DNA of 64,000 nucleotides. It comes from Elusimicrobia bacterium RIFOXYA2_FULL_47_53 (GTDB lineage Bacteria; Elusimicrobiota; Endomicrobiia; Endomicrobiales; XYA2-FULL-47-53). Both the position numbers and the translations under genes were made by a program. Positions 53,672 to 63,025 of this stretch are shown here, in pieces. Location: the NCBI GenBank assembly GCA_001800315.1, contig MGVE01000003.1:5318-69317 (forward strand), in the 5' to 3' direction. The first letter of the stretch is position 1, and every line of letters starts with the position of its first letter. The notes below the pieces were generated by a model, which had not been told where the DNA came from, ran no database searches, and saw only the letters and a list, made by a program, of their open reading frames with translations.

Positions 53672-56600
53672 ATGAAAAAAATAATATTATTATCTTTTGC
53701 CGTCGTCGCTTTGAGTTTTAATTCAGTCGTGGGCATAACCTCGCCTGATTTTGCGTCCATGCCGGATGACGATATTTTGAACACTATTGAGAGGGCCGCT
53801 TTTGACTATTTTTGGAACGGCATAAACAATGATATTTACGGCGATAGTTCAACGGTAAAGAATAAGTGGAATAATTATGTTATTGATTATCCTCAAAGTT
53901 ACAGCCCGACCGATACGGGATTTGCTCTTGTGGCGGCCTGTATCGGACATAAAAGAGGCTGGATATCCGAGGCCGAGGCTATTGATAGAATCAATGTCAT
54001 TCTCACCAAATATCAGCAGGCTCCGGAAAGCGCCGCGGCCTCCCATAACGAACTGGTTCATCATAATGGTTTTTTCTACCGCACAACGACTTCTACCGGC
54101 ACCAGGTACGATACCTCCACCGAGCTCGCAACGATAGACACCACCTTTTTAGCCGCGGGGGTGCTTTTTGCCGGCAAATACTGCGTGGACAATAATCTGA
54201 CTAATGGTACGACAATATGGAATAATGCTGATTACATATACAATAGAATAAACTGGAATTGGATGAGGCGCGACAGCACTAATGATTTCATAAACTGGAG
54301 CTGGACGCCGGAGAGCGGTTTTGATTTGACATCAAATATCGGCGGATTCAGCGAGGGAGTGCTGTCTTATGTGCTTGCGATGGGTTCTACGAATTACTCG
54401 CTCAACAACTTGAGCGGGACGCTGCCTTTGGGCTGGAAAAACCTCGGCAGGGCGACAACTTCATATCAAAATATTACTTATGTGCCCGACGGATGGGGCG
54501 CTCTGTTCTGTCACCAGTATCCGGATTTATTTGTGGATTTTACAGGCAAGCGCGACGGCTACCAATGCTATGCCGCTGATACTTATAAAGCCACAATTTC
54601 TCACCATAGATACGCTTATAATAACTCTTCAAGATACGCGACCTACGGAAAGAACAGCTGGGGGCTGGGCGAAGCCTATAATCCTTCTGCCATAAATGGT
54701 GGATACTACCATTTCGGTATTAACGCAGGCCGGATTGAGGACGGCACGGTGGCTTTGAGCAACTTGATTTGTGCCATAAATCAGCAGCCCAGGCAGGTAA
54801 TTGATTCCATTAAATATCTGATAGGAAAATACCCAAATACCACAGGCAACACTAATCATTTCTGGGGGCTTTACGGTTTCCCGGATTCGTATAATATTGA
54901 CACGACAGGATCTTTTAATGAGCCTGACTTGTGGCGCGGAGACGATGTCGTAGGCGTTCACCAGGGCGCCATATTGGTTGCCATTGAAAACTATAGGTCC
55001 GGACTTGTGAAAAATACTTTTTCAAATATTTCTTATATTCAAAAGGCATTGATAACCGGTGCGGCTAATCTCGGTTTTACCGCGGACACCACGGCGCCCG
55101 GTAAAATTACGGTTTCCAAAATAGCAAATTTATCCGCCGATAAATCCAAAGTTGGGAGAATTGCTCTTAACTGGGCCGCGCCCGGCGATAACGACTATAC
55201 GCTTAATCTTTCAAGCGGAATGTTTGAGGTCCGTTTTGCCACCATTGCAAGCGATACCTGGGACAGCGCTCCGCCGAATTATCTGTATTACAATACTGTT
55301 TTTGACACGCAGGCCGTTGCGGGTAGCGCCCAGAGCTGGGTAGTCACCGGCCTTGCGGACGCTCCGTACTATTATTTCTGGGTAAGGGCCACAGACGACA
55401 GTTTTAACTGGAGCGCGGTTTCCGATAAACTGACTGTGTCAATGTCTAACGCTCTGGCGGCCTCGCCGTCGTCGGGCTACAACACCTATTCTCCGGGAAC
55501 CGTCACGCTGACGGGTTTTGAGTTTGGAGCCGGAACGACGGTAAAACTCGTAAAGTCCGGAGAGAGCGACATAGCCGCATCCTCCGTGAGTATAACCGAC
55601 GGCAATACCCTGACCTGCGTCTTTGATACGGCTGGCAAGGCATCCGGTAACTGGGATATTGTAGTCACAACGGGAGGAGCCAACTCCTCTTTTACTTATT
55701 CCGCGGGTTTTACGGTAAAAACAATGGCAATGACTTCCGCAGCGCCGGCCTCGGCAGTTTCCAACAGCGGCGTTGTTACGGTTGAGCTGACCGGCGAGGG
55801 TTTCGTCGCTGGTTCAACCGTCAAACTTGTAAAGGCAGGGCAGGCTGAGGTCACGGCCGCGAATGTCACTGTGACAAGCTCAAACAAAATAAGCTTTTCG
55901 GTTGACACCTCCGGAATGGCCGCGGGCGCCTGGGATATAGTGGTGAGCACTACCATAGGAACAAGCGCCGTAACCATGACCTTCGCCTCGGCATTTGAGA
56001 TATCCGGTTATCCCACATCTTCAAAGAACCTTGTTGAAAAGGCGAAAAATGTCACCGTCGTGCTAAAAGCCGAAAAAGGCGATATTACAATTGATGTTCC
56101 CGCGGGAAGTTTCTCGCAGGATGTGTATCTTACGGTTATTGTTTCTACGGTGCCGGTCTCGTTAAGAGATACCTTTGTGCTGACGGAGCTGGGTATAGAA
56201 CTCCTGCTGGACAAGAATATTCAGCCGGAAAAAGAAATTATCATTACTGTTAAATACCGCGATGCCGACGCCAGGGGTTTTGACGAATCCCAATTCGTTA
56301 TAGCGCGCTACGACGAAGGCCGTCTTTGCTGGCTTCCGCTGGTTTCAACGGCATATCCGTCAGAAAACAAGGTTGAGGGAAAAACAAACCATTTCTCGCG
56401 GTTCGCGATCCTTCAGTTTGTTCCCGCGTCGGATGTGTCCGGCGTGAAAGTATTTCCAAATCCTTTCAACCCTCTGCTGGAGGCCCAGGGCCTTACATTC
56501 ACGGATTTACCTTCGCAAGCGGATATTAAAATATACAATGTCGCGGGCGAGCTTGTGCGCGAGATAGATTACCTGACGGGAAACGGCCGGGCGCGGTGGG

Positions 56601-56704
56601 ACGGCAAAAACTATTCGGGTAAAGCGGCCGCCAGCGGCGTATATGTCGCGGTTGTTACCTGCACAGGCGGCAGTAAAAAAGTGTCTATAGCGGTTATAAA
56701 ATGA
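53672..56704 (+). CDS. Secreted glucoamylase-like glycosidase with FlgD-type C-terminal tail
   Basis: 1010 residues. Signal peptide 1-22. Residues about 30-465 match the glycoamylase-like (alpha/alpha)6 domain (ERAAFDYFWNGIN, PTDTGFALVAACIGHKRGWI, GWGALFCHQYPDLFVDF, FNEPDLWRGDDVVGVHQGAI in parts), related to GH144/GH162 beta-1,2-glucanases. Then a fibronectin III-like module (about 470-595), two IPT/TIG-like modules (about 598-780), a ZU5-like module (about 790-900) and a FlgD-like tail (VFPNPFNPLLE...KIYNVAGELVREI, WDGKNYSGKAAASGVYV). The tail suggests type IX-like secretion or surface attachment. Substrate unproven. Confidence 0.75.
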   Translation: MKKIILLSFAVVALSFNSVVGITSPDFASMPDDDILNTIERAAFDYFWNGINNDIYGDSSTVKNKWNNYVIDYPQSYSPTDTGFALVAACIGHKRGWISEAEAIDRINVILTKYQQAPESAAASHNELVHHNGFFYRTTTSTGTRYDTSTELATIDTTFLAAGVLFAGKYCVDNNLTNGTTIWNNADYIYNRINWNWMRRDSTNDFINWSWTPESGFDLTSNIGGFSEGVLSYVLAMGSTNYSLNNLSGTLPLGWKNLGRATTSYQNITYVPDGWGALFCHQYPDLFVDFTGKRDGYQCYAADTYKATISHHRYAYNNSSRYATYGKNSWGLGEAYNPSAINGGYYHFGINAGRIEDGTVALSNLICAINQQPRQVIDSIKYLIGKYPNTTGNTNHFWGLYGFPDSYNIDTTGSFNEPDLWRGDDVVGVHQGAILVAIENYRSGLVKNTFSNISYIQKALITGAANLGFTADTTAPGKITVSKIANLSADKSKVGRIALNWAAPGDNDYTLNLSSGMFEVRFATIASDTWDSAPPNYLYYNTVFDTQAVAGSAQSWVVTGLADAPYYYFWVRATDDSFNWSAVSDKLTVSMSNALAASPSSGYNTYSPGTVTLTGFEFGAGTTVKLVKSGESDIAASSVSITDGNTLTCVFDTAGKASGNWDIVVTTGGANSSFTYSAGFTVKTMAMTSAAPASAVSNSGVVTVELTGEGFVAGSTVKLVKAGQAEVTAANVTVTSSNKISFSVDTSGMAAGAWDIVVSTTIGTSAVTMTFASAFEISGYPTSSKNLVEKAKNVTVVLKAEKGDITIDVPAGSFSQDVYLTVIVSTVPVSLRDTFVLTELGIELLLDKNIQPEKEIIITVKYRDADARGFDESQFVIARYDEGRLCWLPLVSTAYPSENKVEGKTNHFSRFAILQFVPASDVSGVKVFPNPFNPLLEAQGLTFTDLPSQADIKIYNVAGELVREIDYLTGNGRARWDGKNYSGKAAASGVYVAVVTCTGGSKKVSIAVIK

Positions 56705-56832
56705 AAAAAGCAAAGGGTAAAAAAACGCGCCGCGCCAAGCCTTCAAAAACAATCAAGGAGATTAAAAGGGTCAGGTGCGAGAACTGCTGCGGTTGCGGCG
56801 GGTGCCGCGGCCTGCTGCTAAAAAAGTATTAG
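56701..56832 (+). CDS. 43-residue basic, Cys-rich peptide
   Basis: The ATG overlaps the stop of the glycosidase gene (ATGA). The first 30 residues are strongly basic (MKKAKGKKTRRAKPSKTIKE), then come six cysteines in RCENCCGCGGCRGLLL and the end LKKY. The pattern suggests a metal-binding or disulfide-rich miniprotein, but no family is recognised. The ribosome site would lie inside the upstream gene. A 26-base gap separates it from the zinc-ribbon gene. Confidence 0.5.
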   Translation: MKKAKGKKTRRAKPSKTIKEIKRVRCENCCGCGGCRGLLLKKY

Positions 56833-56858
56833 ATAATTATTTAAACGGAGGTAGCGCT

Positions 56859-57065
56859 ATGCCAGCAAGAAACGGACAGAACCCGATAAGGGCGGTCAGA
56901 AACTTTGAGCACGGAGTCAGTAAGGGAAGCGATACTATGAGCGTTCACGGCAAGACGGTAAATCATATTTGCCCGGCCTGTAAAACCGAGGTTCCGCCGA
57001 AGCCGGGATTCCGTCTTTCTTCTATTAAGTGTCCGAAATGCGGAGCATCAATGGGCGGCAAGTAG
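56859..57065 (+). CDS. Small zinc-ribbon protein
   Basis: 68 residues from the ATG at 56859, which has GGAGGT six bases upstream. A longer frame from 56775 runs through the Cys-rich peptide in another phase. C-terminal zinc ribbon: CPACKTEVPPKPGFRLSSIKC in parts (CPAC and CPKCGASMGGK). The N-terminal half is polar, with PARNGQNPIRAVRNFEHGVS. Similar tiny proteins are conserved hypotheticals. A hairpin GCCTC...GAGGC near 57135-57165 may end this transcript. Confidence 0.65.
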   Translation: MPARNGQNPIRAVRNFEHGVSKGSDTMSVHGKTVNHICPACKTEVPPKPGFRLSSIKCPKCGASMGGK

Positions 57066-57178
57066 GGTTTCAGTTGTTGACGGCTGCGACGGGAGAACGG
57101 TCTTGTAATAAATCCAAGATTGTTGCACTTTTAGGCCTCGCAATTAAAGCGCACAGAGGCTGGGTCTTACTGTTTTGT

Positions 57179-57207
57179 TTGTAATATTATAATAAAATCC
57201 GTATAAT
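57179..57207 (+). promoter_or_regulatory. Predicted promoter of the tRNA-Ser region
   Basis: TTGTAA (57179-57184), a 17-base spacer and a perfect TATAAT (57202-57207). Transcription would begin near 57213, right before the first tRNA-Ser-like fragment at 57218, about 310 bases upstream of tRNA-Ser(CGA). Confidence 0.5.
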
Positions 57208-57217
57208 ATTGTTTTAT

Positions 57218-57235
57218 GGATAGGTGGCCGAGTGG
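57218..57235 (+). repeat. tRNA-Ser 5' fragment, copy 1
   Basis: GGATAGGTGGCCGAGTGG matches the first 18 bases of tRNA-Ser(CGA) with one difference. After it the sequence diverges from any tRNA, but it can fold: GTTGC...GCAAC (about 57244-57266) and GGATGT...ACATCC (about 57292-57313). No 3' tRNA half follows. Confidence 0.65.
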
Positions 57236-57341
57236 GCGAATGTTGCGACAAACCGGAGCAACGCGTCATGAGCGGACACCAGAGCGGAGCGAGGATGTCC
57301 GGGCAAGCACATCCTGGCCAGCCGTAATGAACGAAGTGAAT

Positions 57342-57359
57342 GGAGAGGTGGCCGAGTGG
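57342..57359 (+). repeat. tRNA-Ser 5' fragment, copy 2
   Basis: GGAGAGGTGGCCGAGTGG is identical to the first 18 bases of tRNA-Ser(CGA) at 57522. The next bases can form GCTGCAG...CTGCAGC (about 57359-57397) and GGTGC...GCACC (about 57399-57442), with no 3' tRNA half. The leading bases agtgaat recur before tRNA-Ser(GGA) at 63820-63826. Confidence 0.7.
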
Positions 57360-57521
57360 GCTGCAGTCCGAGGAATAACGAGGACGAGCCTGCAGCGGGT
57401 GCGAGAGAACAAGGTTAGTGATAAAACAAGCTGGTGAGCACCCGGGGTGAAGGCGCAATGGCGCCGCCAAAAGCAGTCAATCTAACGCAATTTAAGAAAT
57501 ATATTAGCTACGAAAACAATT

Positions 57522-57608
57522 GGAGAGGTGGCCGAGTGGTTGAAGGCGCCGGTCTCGAAAACCGGTATACCAGCAATGGTATCGCGAGTTCAAATCTCGC
57601 CCTCTCCG
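57522..57608 (+). tRNA. tRNA-Ser (anticodon CGA)
   Basis: 87 bases. Acceptor GGAGAGG with CCTCTCC, discriminator G. D-arm region GGCCGAGTGGTTGAAGGC, anticodon stem CCGGT/ACCGG with CGA at 57556-57558, a long variable arm and T-loop region GCGAGTTCAAATCTCGC. CCA is not encoded. Confidence 0.95.
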
Positions 57609-57765
57609 TTTTTTATGTTGCATTAACAGGTAAAATTTAGTACTACATAGGCTGTTCCTTGGTTTTAGCTTGTAAACACTGCGAAATTCATTAATGGACA
57701 GAAATTCTTTTGTTTTGTTCAAGTGACGCGTGTGTTTTGTCAAATACTTCAAAAGGAGGTGTGAA

Positions 57766-57966
57766 ATGGGGCAGTTATACGAGATAGCGCTAAAAGTTAA
57801 CAAGGCTATAGAAGACAGTAAGCTTGATAAGTTTCAGACAAGAGGCAAGATATCTTTAAAAACAGGGTTTATGCTTGGTTTGATAAATGCGAATACTCCT
57901 GATGATAATGATAAAATTGAAAAGGTTAAGGCGGCTGTCAAAGAAATATTAGGCATTTCCTTGTGA
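57766..57966 (+). CDS. Small unrecognised protein (66 residues)
   Basis: The ATG at 57766 follows the strong site AAAAGGAGGTG (57751-57761). Sequence MGQLYEIALKVNKAIEDSK, then SLKTGFMLGLINANTPDD and an amphipathic C-terminal helix EKVKAAVKEILGIS. No family recognised, no membrane segment. The gene ends 14 bases before the Cache-HAMP receptor gene, so the two are likely co-translated. It may be an accessory or adaptor of that receptor. Somewhat more AT-rich than the core genes. Confidence 0.6.
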   Translation: MGQLYEIALKVNKAIEDSKLDKFQTRGKISLKTGFMLGLINANTPDDNDKIEKVKAAVKEILGISL

Positions 57967-57979
57967 TCGGAGGATTATT

Positions 57980-59158
57980 GTGAAAATTAAATCGCTCAAA
58001 GCCAAGTTGATAATAGTTGTAATAGCCTGTCTTTCGGCAGCAACTGCCATAAATGCGTGGCTGTTAATCAACGCGTTCCAGCAGAATATTAATACTGTTT
58101 CGCGTGAAGCCCTTCGCAGCGCCAAAGACACATATGTTAATCTGGAAGAAGACAGCACCAGAGTCCTGTCGTCGACGCTCGTCGCGCTTTTAGACAATGA
58201 CGGTATCAAGGCGCGATACATGGAAAAAGATCGCAACAAGCTTTATCAGCTGGCAGCCCCCACATTTTCCGTTCTAAAAAGCAAATTTAATATTACTCAT
58301 TGGTACTTTATTAATCCCGAGAACGGTTCGGAAGATGTAGCGCAGAAATGTTTCCTGCGAGTCCATAAACCCGAGCAATATGGGGATGTTATTAAGCGTT
58401 TTACTTATCTGAATGCGGTTAAGGACAAGACATTTTCCGTCGGTAAGGAACTTGGGTTGACAGCGTTTGCCTTGCGCGTGGTTCATCCTTATTATAAAAA
58501 TAATAAACTTATAGGCTATATGGAATTAGGGCAGGAAATTGATAATTTTATATCTATAATGAAGAAACAAACAGGGGATGATTACGCGCTCCTTATTGAA
58601 AAGAAATATTTAAATGAGGCAAGCTGGGCATCTGTTCGTACAAGTCATGGCCTTCCTAACAACTGGAACGCAATGAAAGAAATGCTTGTTGTTGATAACA
58701 CGACCGATTCCGAGAGTATTCTGCAGTTTGACGGCAGCATAGAACAGATACCGGATGAAGGCAAAACCTTGGAGAGAGTCAGTCAGGGTTCATCGGTATA
58801 TATTCGCAGTATATTCCCGATTTACGACGCAGGTAACAGAAAAGTCGGAGGTATCTTTGTTCTGCATAATGTTACGGCGATGTATAATAACATGAACTCA
58901 ACTTTGCACAGGGTTATTGCGCTGTCAGTCACTCTTATGCTTGTTTTAACATTCTTGTTGATATTTTTCCTTGACCGGTTGATTATCAAGCGCCTGAATG
59001 TCATTATAAATACAGCCACTAATGTTGTGGGCGGGGATTTTAACGCTGAAATCGTGCGTTCCTCTGACGATGAAATTGGCAGGTTTGAGGAATTGTTTGA
59101 GCAGTTCAGGAAAATTCTTGTAGATATGGTTAAGAATGTTGAAGAAAAAGGCAAGTAA
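57980..59158 (+). CDS. Cache-HAMP membrane receptor without output domain
   Basis: 392 residues. Transmembrane helix 1 at about 8-30. Periplasmic double-Cache-like sensor at about 31-305 (LRSAKDTYVNLEEDSTRVLSS, HWYFINPENGSE, LRVHKPEQYGDVIKRFT, GYMELGQEIDNF, IFPIYDAGNRKVGGIFVLHN). Transmembrane helix 2 about 312-332, HAMP about 333-385 (RLNVIINTATNVVGGDFNAE, SDDEIGRFEELFEQF). It ends right after HAMP, with no kinase, methyl-accepting or cyclase domain. GTG start with GGAGG upstream. A strong terminator follows, so it is not an obvious truncation by rearrangement. Confidence 0.75.
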   Translation: MKIKSLKAKLIIVVIACLSAATAINAWLLINAFQQNINTVSREALRSAKDTYVNLEEDSTRVLSSTLVALLDNDGIKARYMEKDRNKLYQLAAPTFSVLKSKFNITHWYFINPENGSEDVAQKCFLRVHKPEQYGDVIKRFTYLNAVKDKTFSVGKELGLTAFALRVVHPYYKNNKLIGYMELGQEIDNFISIMKKQTGDDYALLIEKKYLNEASWASVRTSHGLPNNWNAMKEMLVVDNTTDSESILQFDGSIEQIPDEGKTLERVSQGSSVYIRSIFPIYDAGNRKVGGIFVLHNVTAMYNNMNSTLHRVIALSVTLMLVLTFLLIFFLDRLIIKRLNVIINTATNVVGGDFNAEIVRSSDDEIGRFEELFEQFRKILVDMVKNVEEKGK

Positions 59159-59235
59159 GCCTAAATTTTCAGCCGGCAATATTTACGATTTGAATTACGG
59201 TTTACATATCATAGTTCAGAATAATTGAATGAATA

Positions 59236-59282
59236 TATCCCAGGTTTGGCTGTAAAGGCCAAGCCTGGGATAGTTAATTTTA
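59236..59282 (+). terminator. Rho-independent terminator after the Cache-HAMP gene
   Basis: TATCCCAGGTTTGGC (59236-59250) and GCCAAGCCTGGGATA (59258-59272) form a 15-base-pair stem with one G-U pair, followed by gttaatttta. It closes the tRNA-Ser/small protein/receptor unit. Confidence 0.75.
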
Positions 59283-59312
59283 TTGGAAATCTTGCGAACA
59301 ATTTGCTAAAAT
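59283..59312 (+). promoter_or_regulatory. Predicted promoter of the FlgD-tail/PorV operon
   Basis: TTGGAA (59283-59288), an 18-base spacer and TAAAAT (59307-59312). The ATG at 59323 is 10 bases after the -10, with no Shine-Dalgarno sequence, which suggests leaderless translation. Confidence 0.45.
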
Positions 59313-59322
59313 CAGATAAATT

Positions 59323-60054
59323 ATGAAAAAGATACTTATCACCTGCGCATTACTTATTATCTCCCAAAGCCTTTTTGCCGCCGCGAAGTTTAAAACCGGC
59401 ACTCTGCCTCTGGTGGACGGGGTTTATAACTCCACCCAGGCCGTGATTACCGGTAGAAATCCTGTATTCTCCTGGGAATACAGCAGTGTCACGAGTTCAT
59501 ATACGATTGTTGTAAGCTCGGATCCGGCTACATTTCTTTCCGACGGAGAGATTTGGAATTTTGTTGGCGCTACGACCTCGGTAAATACTATTAACTTTGT
59601 CACAAGAAATGCCTACAACAGCAACGGTACGGCCGGAACGCTTTCCGCCGGAGTTGTATATTACTGGCGTGTGACAATTTACGAGGATGGCACCAGCGCC
59701 TTTGCTGACGGCCAGTTTACTGCCGCGGCTTCCGTTGCTTCTCTTCAAAGAGAAAAATTTGATCTCGCCGTTGACTGGAACAATCCATTTAATCCTTCTA
59801 AGGGGCAGTATACTATTTTCAGATACGGTTCCAGGGACAGGGACCGCAGGGTAAAATTAAGGGTATACAGCCTTTCGGGCGATCTGGTTCAGGAATGGCC
59901 GGAGCAGACGGTTCTTAAAGACGCCTGGTACTCGCAGTCATGGGACGGAAAAAACATCCTGGGCGAAACTGTGGCGCGGGGAATGTATTTTGTGAATCTC
60001 GTGGATGTCGGAGATTATCAGGGTATAACAAGAAGAATAGCGGTAATAAAATGA
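59323..60054 (+). CDS. Exported protein with fibronectin-like domain and FlgD-type tail
   Basis: 243 residues. Signal peptide 1-20 (ending LFAAAK). A fibronectin III-like domain spans about 25-140 (NPVFSWEYSSVTSSYTIVVS, SAGVVYYWRVTIY). A FlgD-like C-terminal domain follows (150-243: NNPFNPSKGQYTIFRY, KLRVYSLSGDLVQEW, SWDGKNILGETVARGMYFVNL). The tail matches that of the glycosidase at 53672 in type. It is coupled (ATGA) to the PorV-OmpA gene, so it may be cargo or a partner of that outer-membrane protein. Confidence 0.75.
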   Translation: MKKILITCALLIISQSLFAAAKFKTGTLPLVDGVYNSTQAVITGRNPVFSWEYSSVTSSYTIVVSSDPATFLSDGEIWNFVGATTSVNTINFVTRNAYNSNGTAGTLSAGVVYYWRVTIYEDGTSAFADGQFTAAASVASLQREKFDLAVDWNNPFNPSKGQYTIFRYGSRDRDRRVKLRVYSLSGDLVQEWPEQTVLKDAWYSQSWDGKNILGETVARGMYFVNLVDVGDYQGITRRIAVIK

Positions 60055-62114
60055 CGGCAAAGAAAAATATAGCAAAGAGTTTAATATTGTCCGGCCTGTT
60101 GGTTTTCGCGGGTTATCCTGTTTTTGCCGCCGGCACAGGCACGAAGGCTGCTGATTTTCTTAAGGTCAGCGCGGGCGCGCGCCCCGAAGGGCTTGGCGAG
60201 GCCTTTGTGGCCGTGGCCGATGAAACCAGCGGAATGTTCTATAACCCCGCCGGGCCGGCATACATCATTTCCCCGGAAATTCAGGCAACTCACGGGCTCT
60301 GGCTCGGAGACATGACATACAGTTACGCCGGTTATACCATGCCGACGGTTAAGGGAGCTTTTGTTTTTGCGGGGCAGTATTTTTCAGCGCCCGGAACGCC
60401 GAAGATTGTTAACGGAGTAAAATACAGCGATTTTCAGTATTACGACGCTCTCGCCGCTTTGGGATATTCATTCAAGATGAGCGAAGGCTCATCCCTGGGA
60501 ATTAACCTTAAAAATATTTCCAGCCAGATAGATACCAGCCAGGAATCGGCGCTGACCGGCGATTTAGGCTTATTGTTCCGCACGCCGCAGGAAGGATTTT
60601 CTTTCGGAATAGCGGGAAGCAATCTTTTCGGGCAGATGGGGGGCGACAACCTTCCCATGACGGCGCGCGCCGGTATGGCTTTCAAGGCCAGCCTGCCTGA
60701 ACATTACTCGGATATTCTGTTTTCAGTGGAAGGCGGGCAGACCAGCGGCGAGCCGGCATATCTTACAGCGGGTCTTGAGCACTGGGGCGCGAAGACCCTT
60801 GGACTGCGCGTGGGATATAAATATTTTCTTGACGACAGGCTTAACAAAAATATGTACACGCTCCCGCCGGTGCGAGGGGGAATAAGTTTAAGAATAGGAA
60901 GCATGGCCGTAGACTACGCTTATCAACCTTTTGCCGCGCTCGGCGAGACGCACCGCCTTTCCATCACCTGGAGATTATTCGGGTGGGGAGTGCAGTGGAT
61001 AAAAGTCGGTGCGAAAATAAAGGCCGAACCGGCCATTTTCTCTCCCAATAGTGACGGTTCCAGGGACAGCGTGTTTTTTGTTCCGCAATCCGTTGATATA
61101 AAAGATATCAAGACCTGGCAGCTCAGCATTCTGGACTCCAACCGCAGCCTTATACGCGCGTATTCCGGCAAGGATGTTCTTCCCAAGATAATAACCTGGG
61201 AGGGCCAGATGGATGGCGGCAAGCAGGCGTCGGAAGGGAAATATTATTATTTCTTCGGCGCCGAAGGTGACGGCAGAAAACGCGCCCGTTCCGTGACCGG
61301 TGAAATAGTCATAGACCTCACCGCGCCCGACGCGTCCATAACACTGTCAAATCCGGTGCTTGCCCTTGCTCCCGACGGACTCGTAAACCCCGTCACATTC
61401 TACGCGGTGGTCGGAGATTCATATACCGTGGAGCAGTGGCAGCTGAGTATTATTAATGACAAGGGAAGGGCTATAAAGGTGTTCAAGTCAACCTATTCCT
61501 GGAATTCGGAGATACCCTGGGACGGCGTGGACGACTATTACGGCGCCGTGGTGCCCAACGGAGACTATGATGTGAAACTTTCTGTATGGGATATGGCCGG
61601 AAATAAAACAGTGAAGTTTGAAAAAATAAAGGTTTATACCGCTCCGAAGGTTGAAATAAAGGAAGTGGTCAAAGAGGTTCAGGTTAAAGAGGAAAGCAGA
61701 GGCTTGGTGGTAAATCTCGCGAGCCAGGTATTATTTGATGTTGGTAAATCCGTGCTTAAGCCGGCAGCCTCAAAAGCAATGGAAGAAGTGGTAAAACTTT
61801 TAAAGAGCTATCCCGAGAACGATGTTATGATTGAAGGGTTTACTGATTCCACGGGCAGCCGGAGCAAAAATATTGACCTTTCCAGCGCGCGGGCCTGGGC
61901 CATATACAGCCATATTGTAAAAAGCGGCGTCGCTCCCGCGAGGCTCAAAGTCAAAGGTTACGGCCCTGATAAACCCGTTGCCTCAAACAAAACAGCCGCG
62001 GGACGCGCGAAAAACCGCAGAGTTGAGATAATAATACTTAAAAAAGAGCCTGTGCCGGCCCAGCCCGGCACGGAGCAGCAGCCGACCGAAAGCCCTGCTA
62101 TAACAATCCAGTAA
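60051..62114 (+). CDS. PorV/PorQ-like barrel fused to Ig-like repeats and an OmpA domain
   Basis: 687 residues. Signal peptide to about residue 28 (PVFAAG). A PorV/UPF0164-type outer-membrane barrel spans about 30-325 (AADFLKVSAGARPEGLGEAF, VADETSGMFYNPAG). Two FlgD/gliding-type Ig-like repeats follow (about 328-440: FSPNSDGSRDSVFFVPQ; 441-545: AMDNKGRA-like, WDGVDDYYGAVVPNGDYDV). The OmpA C-terminal domain (about 555-665) has VLFDVGKSVLKPAA, IEGFTDSTGS and GRAKNRRVEI, binding peptidoglycan. PorV alone is a shuttle of type IX secretion. This fusion would anchor it to the wall. Confidence 0.85.
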   Translation: MTAKKNIAKSLILSGLLVFAGYPVFAAGTGTKAADFLKVSAGARPEGLGEAFVAVADETSGMFYNPAGPAYIISPEIQATHGLWLGDMTYSYAGYTMPTVKGAFVFAGQYFSAPGTPKIVNGVKYSDFQYYDALAALGYSFKMSEGSSLGINLKNISSQIDTSQESALTGDLGLLFRTPQEGFSFGIAGSNLFGQMGGDNLPMTARAGMAFKASLPEHYSDILFSVEGGQTSGEPAYLTAGLEHWGAKTLGLRVGYKYFLDDRLNKNMYTLPPVRGGISLRIGSMAVDYAYQPFAALGETHRLSITWRLFGWGVQWIKVGAKIKAEPAIFSPNSDGSRDSVFFVPQSVDIKDIKTWQLSILDSNRSLIRAYSGKDVLPKIITWEGQMDGGKQASEGKYYYFFGAEGDGRKRARSVTGEIVIDLTAPDASITLSNPVLALAPDGLVNPVTFYAVVGDSYTVEQWQLSIINDKGRAIKVFKSTYSWNSEIPWDGVDDYYGAVVPNGDYDVKLSVWDMAGNKTVKFEKIKVYTAPKVEIKEVVKEVQVKEESRGLVVNLASQVLFDVGKSVLKPAASKAMEEVVKLLKSYPENDVMIEGFTDSTGSRSKNIDLSSARAWAIYSHIVKSGVAPARLKVKGYGPDKPVASNKTAAGRAKNRRVEIIILKKEPVPAQPGTEQQPTESPAITIQ

Positions 62115-62119
62115 ACCAG

Positions 62120-63025
62120 ATGCTGATTAAACTTTTAAGAATAGCGCTTATCGCTTTTACAATAGTCTGCCTGATGTTTTTAGGAGTAATAGGTATCGCC
62201 GGATTGGTTGTGGGTTCGGAACGCGTGCAGAAATCCATCGCCGTGGGCCTCAGAGGATACTTAAACAGAGAAGTAAGCTTTTCAAAAATTGTATTTAATC
62301 CATTTTCCGGCGCGGCATTCAACGGTTTCAGGATTTCAGAAAATCCGGATTTTCGTTCCGGAGAGTTTTTTAGCGCGCAAGCCGTAAAGTTTTCGTTTGG
62401 CTGGCCTATTTTCAGGGAAGAACGCTCCAGCTTCGGCAGGCTGGAGCTATTGTCCCCGGTGCTGACTCTTAAGAATCTTGAAACAGGCAAGCTTAACGCC
62501 CTGGATTTCGTTTCCTCCGTGAGGCGGGGCAAAAGCTCCATGTCAAAATATTACGGAGCTCCGGCGGCGGTGCTGGCCGACAGTTTTGCTGTTTCAGACG
62601 GGAAGATATATTTTCCGGACGGCATGGTTTTAGAAAACATACAAATCAGCGCCCGGTCCTTTTCCGTTAAGAGAAAGTTTGATTTTAATTTAGACGCTCA
62701 GCTTGTAAGCCCGGGGGATACAATTTTTCTAAATGCGTCGGGAACGGCGGATTTTCCGGGCGGCGCCCTGACCTCTCTTGCCATAAACGCCTTGGCCGGC
62801 GATGAGCCGTTGAGCCTGTCCGGTTCTGTCAGCAGGTCCGATGGGAAAGCTTATTCCTACGATTTCCTTCTCTCCGGCAAAAGAGAAGCGGTAAATAAAA
62901 TATTGGCTATTCTTTCTCCGCGGGCCGCTCTTCCGGAACTTGGCGGACCGGACGATGTCAATGTAAAACTGACAGGCAAACAGGGCTCGTTTAAAGCGTT
63001 TCGCGTAAAAAAAGTGGAAAAATAG
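62120..63025 (+). CDS. AsmA-like protein, short
   Basis: 301 residues. N-terminal transmembrane helix (6-30). The AsmA/DUF748-type N-terminal pattern follows: GYLNREVSFSKIVFNPFSGAAFNGFRIS, FSAQAVKFSFGW, LELLSPVLTLKNLETGKLN (in parts). AsmA-family proteins bridge the inner and outer membranes in phospholipid transport and are usually above 600 residues. Here only the first third is present, ending in a basic tail (FRVKKVEK). It may be a naturally short member or a truncated gene. It starts five bases after the PorV-OmpA gene. Confidence 0.65.
   Translation: MLIKLLRIALIAFTIVCLMFLGVIGIAGLVVGSERVQKSIAVGLRGYLNREVSFSKIVFNPFSGAAFNGFRISENPDFRSGEFFSAQAVKFSFGWPIFREERSSFGRLELLSPVLTLKNLETGKLNALDFVSSVRRGKSSMSKYYGAPAAVLADSFAVSDGKIYFPDGMVLENIQISARSFSVKRKFDFNLDAQLVSPGDTIFLNASGTADFPGGALTSLAINALAGDEPLSLSGSVSRSDGKAYSYDFLLSGKREAVNKILAILSPRAALPELGGPDDVNVKLTGKQGSFKAFRVKKVEK

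Follow-up and report, generated by a model that had tools for sequence, protein, structure and literature searches.

In the type A route of type IX secretion, described in Porphyromonas and Flavobacterium, export relies on SprA/Sov, PorV and cargo bearing a C-terminal domain (CTD). Cargo of type A is picked up by PorV. For type B cargo, the gene immediately downstream codes for a dedicated PorP/SprF carrier (PMC12618676), which continues to hold the cargo as its anchor (PMC12635249), and PorP together with its cargo is attached to the wall by PorE (PMC9143113, PMC7192894). Reviews confine type IX secretion to Bacteroidota and kin, and a 2024 structural paper reports type IX genes as absent outside the Fibrobacteres–Chlorobi–Bacteroidetes (FCB) phyla (PMC11285876). 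In the openly licensed literature we found no description of type IX genes or of PorV in Elusimicrobiota. Here we analyse a stretch of 64,000 nucleotides (the window) from Elusimicrobia bacterium RIFOXYA2_FULL_47_53, in which the gene of a small exported protein ending in an Ig-like tail overlaps a gene coding for a PorV-type barrel, two Ig-like domains and an OmpA domain. This unit combines separately published steps (PorV collection, dedicated carrier, anchor, PorE tether) with a PorV-type barrel in one polypeptide. Sequence and structural models lead us to propose, with a probability of roughly two thirds, that this Elusimicrobiota genome encodes a SprA-based type IX-like export system with dedicated PorV-type carriers that also act as anchors, and that the window encodes one such unit.

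The genome resembles the type A route in its SprA-like gene, its PorV-family barrels and its terminal Ig-like tails, akin to the CTDs of PorU and PorZ and to those bound by PorV. It differs in the number of its PorV-type barrels, about 31 and for the most part one to each cargo gene, against a single general PorV in the type A route (PMC12618676), and in its host phylum, the published scope being the FCB phyla (PMC11285876). With the PorP/SprF carriers of type B cargo (SprB/SprF, PG1035/PorP) it shares a carrier gene right after the cargo gene, many pairs per genome and a carrier expected to stay as anchor (PMC12618676, PMC9143113, PMC12635249), but the barrel of the window belongs by score to the PorV family (NF033709, 116.6 bits for a cut-off of 90). 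Like the PorE-PorP-PG1035 complex, the unit links an OmpA domain of the peptidoglycan-binding type to a barrel, here predicted to hold cargo (PMC9143113, PMC7192894), although in the window the barrel is of PorV type and barrel, spacers and OmpA form a single polypeptide. Finally, the tail is like the Ig domain of the FlgD hook cap in fold and sequence (FlgD_ig; FlgD in the PDB, E 7e-7). By contrast with FlgD, it is paired with barrels and its last residues before the stop codon form a K-x-AVI-K/R/H motif, in a genome with no flagellar FlhA.

Overlapping genes for a tailed protein and a PorV-Ig-Ig-OmpA protein

The features of the window are listed below, the unit first and its neighbours after it. 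Open reading frame (ORF) starts in the window were called mechanically; G and L numbers denote genomes and loci, the genome of the window being G000.

59323..60054, plus strand: exported protein of 243 amino acids (aa), predicted cargo of the barrel encoded at 60051, with a signal peptide, an Ig/Fn3-like domain (Rha78A-N-like) and a terminal tail
59782..60054, plus strand: type IX/FlgD-like tail of this protein, with NPFNP at 59782 (aa 154), WDGKN, and RRIAVIK directly before the stop codon
60051..60054, plus strand: ATGA overlap of 4 bp between the stop of 59323 and the start of the barrel gene, read from the sequence as aaaATGAcgg
60051..62114, plus strand: PorV-type barrel with two Ig-like domains and OmpA, 687 aa (NF033709)
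60150..60974, plus strand: PorV/FadL-type barrel domain, aa 34-308, with a structural match to PorV
60999..61640, plus strand: two Ig-like domains of CHU_C/FlgD_ig type, aa 317-432 and 436-530 (PF13585, E 1.3e-5; PF13860, E 1.4e-4), with strands in the model
61668..62045, plus strand: OmpA-like domain, predicted to bind peptidoglycan, aa 540-665 (PF00691, E 1.1e-22)
62120..63025, plus strand: short AsmA/DUF748-like membrane protein (DUF748, 40.8 bits, under the cut-off of 50)
53672..56704, plus strand: glycoside hydrolase (GH)-like exported enzyme, 1010 aa, with PF10091, Ig-like repeats and a type IX-like tail
56432..56704, plus strand: C-terminal tail of this enzyme, with NPFNP at 56459 (aa 930), WDGKN, and SIAVIK directly before the stop codon

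A sequence-only reading of this stretch had described the proteins at 53672 and 59323 as exported, with FlgD-like tails carrying NPFNP and WDG motifs, and had coupled the second to a PorV-like barrel fused to Ig-like repeats and OmpA. Both descriptions agree with our results: both ORFs are present and their tails run right up to the stop codon. The barrel gene begins with the ATG at 60051, which overlaps the TGA of 59323, and not at the mechanical ORF start 59940, so that the two genes are probably translationally coupled, as judged from this overlap. Among the 25 matches listed for the barrel, the PorP/SprF model TIGR03519 is absent. In the AlphaFold model of the fusion protein (mf23bbf784980, pLDDT 82.3), residues 28-315 match PorV best (8gl6_F, Z 33.5 over 280 residues, 21% identity), followed by a second PorV entry (6h3i_F, Z 33.1) and then by FadL-type entries (Z about 27-30), the PorV references coming from the Flavobacterium translocon complex. 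The Ig-like domains inside the protein are internal copies of the domain class that serves as tails. Residues 533-666 match OmpA domains with Z up to 20.2 and the motifs GFTDSTG (aa 596) and LSSARAW (aa 610), with the conserved D and R, are in place, as expected of a putative peptidoglycan binder.

The two tails of the window qualify in different ways. That of 53672 passes TIGR04183, the NCBI model for the type IX type A sorting domain (24.2 bits, cut-off 23), matches FlgD_ig with 30 bits (cut-off 27) and is found by the tail-family profile at G000:C3:61776-62018. The tail of 59323 qualifies through the family profile only: the protein alone matches a sorting tail weakly (Por_Secre_tail, E 0.014), but it belongs to the family of 36 terminal tails in the genome, with an E value of 1.5e-21 against the family profile, which itself contains it. 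Its Ig/Fn3-like domain matches PF25788 (E 0.0008). The enzyme at 53672 contains the Putative glucoamylase domain (PF10091, E 1.9e-37); no PorV-type gene adjoins it.

The pair of tail gene and PorV-Ig-Ig-OmpA gene is kept in five Elusimicrobiota genomes, that of the window and G001, G004, G005 and G007, and because it recurs in these four others it is not a chance arrangement. The barrel proteins of the four are 51-58% identical to that of the window (the G001 copy is partial), and the tailed protein directly upstream is full-length in three of them and tail-only in G004 (counterparts of 59323 in L010, L011 and L013, the short form in L153). The junctions are overlaps of 4 bp or 1 bp or gaps of 6-11 bp. 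Where the contig extends beyond the barrel, a short membrane protein follows it, with weak DUF748/AsmA matches except in G004; the position is retained in L010, L011 and L012, the DUF748 match being weaker in the first two and lacking in L012. In the window, this protein (62120-63025) is a possible envelope-spanning partner of PorV-OmpA. A scan of 84,980 species genomes retrieved four close relatives, all Elusimicrobia or Endomicrobiales by name. It also retrieved nine distant relatives, which belong to Eisenbacteria, Krumholzibacteriota and other bacteria; at least three of these nine (L155, L160, L163) likewise sit directly after a tailed protein. At L160:719-8804 the genes after that of the tailed protein are those of a PorV-like protein that has a FlgD_ig domain, of a protein of TPR type and of a MotA/ExbB-type protein, an arrangement that hints at energised tail systems in other phyla.

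Tails, barrels and an SprA-like protein in the genome and the phylum

The genome (2.41 Mb in 20 contigs, listed as 100% complete) was searched by profile, and selected stretches were read. A profile of 29 tails retrieves 36 terminal tails, which is the count of FlgD-tail proteins that the sequence-only reading had called for, and every one lies at the C-terminal end of its own open frame; the last residue is K, R or H in 29/29 aligned tails. The barrel profile retrieves 31 distinct PorV-family genes, after two rows were merged as one protein and a TPR fragment and a weak match were excluded. No fewer than 26 of these 31 adjoin a tail gene, about 1 being expected by chance if the genome has about 2200 genes. 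The barrel lies downstream of the tail gene in 23 cases (once with a response-regulator gene between) and upstream in 3, and 17 of the 21 tail-then-barrel pairs that were measured overlap or are at most 30 nt apart, with ORF starts taken mechanically. Distances among tails correlate with those among their partner barrels (Mantel r 0.40, p 0.0002, 26 pairs), which is consistent with partners evolving together. Unpaired barrels lie at C17:30.5k, C12:12k, C13:27k and C8:43k.

Compared with the PDB, the barrel-family profile matches PorV at 3e-39, the next match being TodX at 1.8e-7. The tail profile matches FlgD (7e-7), PorZ (3e-5), PorU (4e-5) and PorV-bound cargo tails (6e-4 and 1e-3), and gingipain CTDs weakly. 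Because FlgD matches mostly end at profile positions 73-77, and those of PorZ, PorU and cargo CTDs reach 85-88, the end of the profile, the tail appears related to both FlgD and type IX CTDs, with the terminal segment of the latter.

Barrels of this genome end in no further module or in TPR, LysM (2) or OmpA (2) modules. LysM, a second kind of wall-binding module, is fused to PorV-type barrels at L062:2726-4792 and L149:6153-7613 (both minus strand), and a further OmpA fusion is found at L064:7347-8825. Other barrels match the PorP/SprF model TIGR03519 weakly (L069, 46.8 bits, cut-off 90.55), and one unpaired PorV-type barrel lies within an exopolysaccharide/PEP-CTERM-like gene cluster (L068:3118-14303, minus strand). 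Some tailed proteins consist of a signal peptide and a tail (129-145 aa) with no passenger, and mostly stand beside TPR- or LysM-bearing PorV-type barrels (L054:5182-5580; L058:3340-3729, minus strand; L065:16400-16789; L147:218-655 and L127:14582-15010, both minus strand; L153:3606-4010). They amount to a sorting tag without cargo, and the tail might itself serve as a subunit. At the other extreme, a tail ends an open frame of 17,343 codons from stop to stop (G000:C6:90173-90442, minus strand, and upstream), a giant predicted surface protein; other long tailed frames span 4660 and 5969 codons.

The sequence-only reading had supposed that no canonical Por/Spr set lies nearby. This holds for the window and is misleading for the genome, which encodes a SprA/Sov-like translocon on another contig:

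Contig C1, L050:6173-11479, minus strand: SprA/Sov-like protein, 1768 aa (TIGR04189, E 6.6e-49, 166 bits, in three collinear stretches)

As a single-sequence query against the PDB this protein returns only noise; a profile of 13 Elusimicrobiota SprA relatives has SprA as its sole match among PDB chains (E 5.8e-32). SprA-like proteins occur in 129/149 and PorV-family proteins in 139/149 Elusimicrobiota genomes, and all 10 PorV-less genomes fall within the 20 SprA-less ones (hypergeometric 2e-10), a count that overstates independent losses because all are in one family. Near SprA in six genomes (L050:13992-15635, minus strand; L133, L134, L139, L140, L142) stands an M6-family zinc metalloprotease with the same C-terminal tail and with HExGH intact in 6/6, the L139 member being assigned by alignment only. 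These loci also hold LptF/LptG-like genes and usually an adjoining PorV/DUF5723/TraF-type barrel. The protease is a possible replacement for the PorU sortase.

A proposed dedicated carrier and competing explanations

In the scheme that we propose, Sec would export the protein encoded at 59323, as suggested by its signal peptide, and the protein would cross the outer membrane through the SprA/Sov-like translocon from contig C1. The PorV-type barrel encoded by the overlapping gene would then collect its terminal Ig-like tail. Because no PorU sortase is recognisable, the cargo probably remains on the barrel as a surface anchor, as type B cargo does on PorP/SprF barrels in Bacteroidota. The two Ig spacers and the OmpA domain would project into the periplasm and fasten the barrel to peptidoglycan, a single chain thus doing the jobs of carrier and PorE. 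The scheme would be repeated about 26 times in the genome with barrels that are bare or carry TPR, LysM or OmpA modules, and the enzyme at 53672 would use an unpaired or shared barrel. A wall-anchored PorV-OmpA acting as receptor, one of two roles suggested by the sequence-only reading, is supported by the coupling, the conservation, the genome-wide pairing and the family assignment.

Several observations weigh against this scheme. The SprA-like match of 166 bits is under the curated TIGR04189 cut-off of 200, and the joint loss of SprA and PorV is restricted to one family, mostly of small genomes. Searches of the genome for Peptidase_C25 (PF01364, the PorU sortase domain) and, for the GldL/GldM motor, for its GldM component (TIGR03517) gave no match, both having been run without a positive control. 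Several tailed proteins have no adjoining barrel, and joint duplication of adjacent genes, rather than contact, could also yield the Mantel correlation. With the tail profile, FlgD entries slightly outscore type IX CTDs, and the tail model (pLDDT 70) does not discriminate, matching the PorU CTD (Z 10.9), PorZ (9.6) and complement macroglobulin domains (up to 10.8). Binding, secretion and localisation of the tailed cargo are themselves predictions.

Among the alternatives, the one that survives best, though we consider it improbable, is that the type IX system is canonical and complete. PorU, PorL-N and other components would then have diverged beyond the reach of the models, cargo would be cleaved and then either released or linked to lipid, and the barrels would be PorV paralogues of the ordinary kind. 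SprA and PorV are indeed present phylum-wide, and the tailed M6-family protease near SprA could replace PorU. Of the components that the sequence-only reading had proposed to search for (PorU, SprA and PorK-N), the genome, listed as complete, yielded the SprA-like protein, and the PorU model NF033707 matched only the tail region. Rather than a full canonical set with one normal PorV, the genome holds SprA with 31 PorV-type barrels and, as far as searches without a positive control can tell, neither PorU protease nor GldM; moreover, one carrier per cargo gene is not the arrangement described for PorV (PMC12618676).

Somewhat less probable still, the OmpA fusion could be a structural tether from outer membrane to wall, with the 59323 protein as its periplasmic or surface partner and no relation to SprA-dependent export. 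The OmpA motifs, the Ig spacers and the AsmA-like gene downstream fit such a role, as do the tail-only partners, in which the tail may be a subunit and not an address. However, tails of the same family also occur on adhesin-like proteins and large enzymes whose PorV partners are bare barrels, and the genome encodes SprA.

It is unlikely that the tails resembling FlgD serve simply as Ig modules for adhesion next to FadL-type transporters, with no functional meaning in their adjacency. FlgD is the best match of the tail profile and FadL entries are structurally close to the barrel, but the tails always stand at the very end of the protein and have a basic last residue in common, 26 of the 31 barrel genes link them genetically to PorV barrels, and PorV beats FadL-type channels in sequence by many orders of magnitude. 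The last alternative, an exit pore formed by the PorV-OmpA barrel itself (the other role suggested by the sequence-only reading), has in its favour the coupling to a tailed protein and is very improbable, because the SprA/Sov-like translocon is the better candidate and PorV-type barrels are small next to SprA and are carriers in the systems studied (PMC12618676, PMC12635249).

A possible rotary motor and the surface biology of Elusimicrobiota

Immediately upstream of the 59323 tail gene, the window also encodes a dCache_3-HAMP membrane sensor without output domain (57980-59158). Elsewhere, a fusion of FliF_C, a transmembrane segment, FliG_M and FliG_C stands beside a MotA gene and, as a rule, two MotB genes, with tail and PorV-type genes often adjoining:

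L054:7271-10828 (G000:C8:204271-207828): FliF-FliG fusion, also present in L117, L118, L119, L120, L121, L124, L126, L127 and L132

FlhA is missing in 148/149 genomes, G000 included, in a search whose controls were found, and the cluster may, from its gene content, encode a rotary motor that derives from the flagellum and works without one. We did not adopt MotA/FliG as the obligatory motor of the export system, of which it is no constant component, because five genomes (G002, G004, G010, G013 and G014) have no MotA relative although they retain SprA and PorV. More speculatively, and we hold it to be rather doubtful, Elusimicrobiota might have a second branch of type IX secretion, with private permanent PorV-type anchors, some of them bolted to the wall, with the M6 metalloprotease replacing PorU, and with some units moved by the FliF-FliG/MotA/two-MotB motor. 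If true, this would be a hitherto undescribed machine for gliding or surface dynamics.

Returning to the dedicated carriers that we favour, the phylum-wide occurrence of SprA-like and PorV proteins would imply a greater age or mobility of the type IX system than has been assumed. The surface biology of Elusimicrobiota would become readable from the tail, which in this genome alone marks 36 predicted surface proteins, and the arrangement of one PorV-type carrier per cargo would make carrier specificity directly testable by swapping tails and barrels. The PorV-OmpA fusion, in turn, suggests how a surface protein might be physically connected, across the outer membrane, with the wall.

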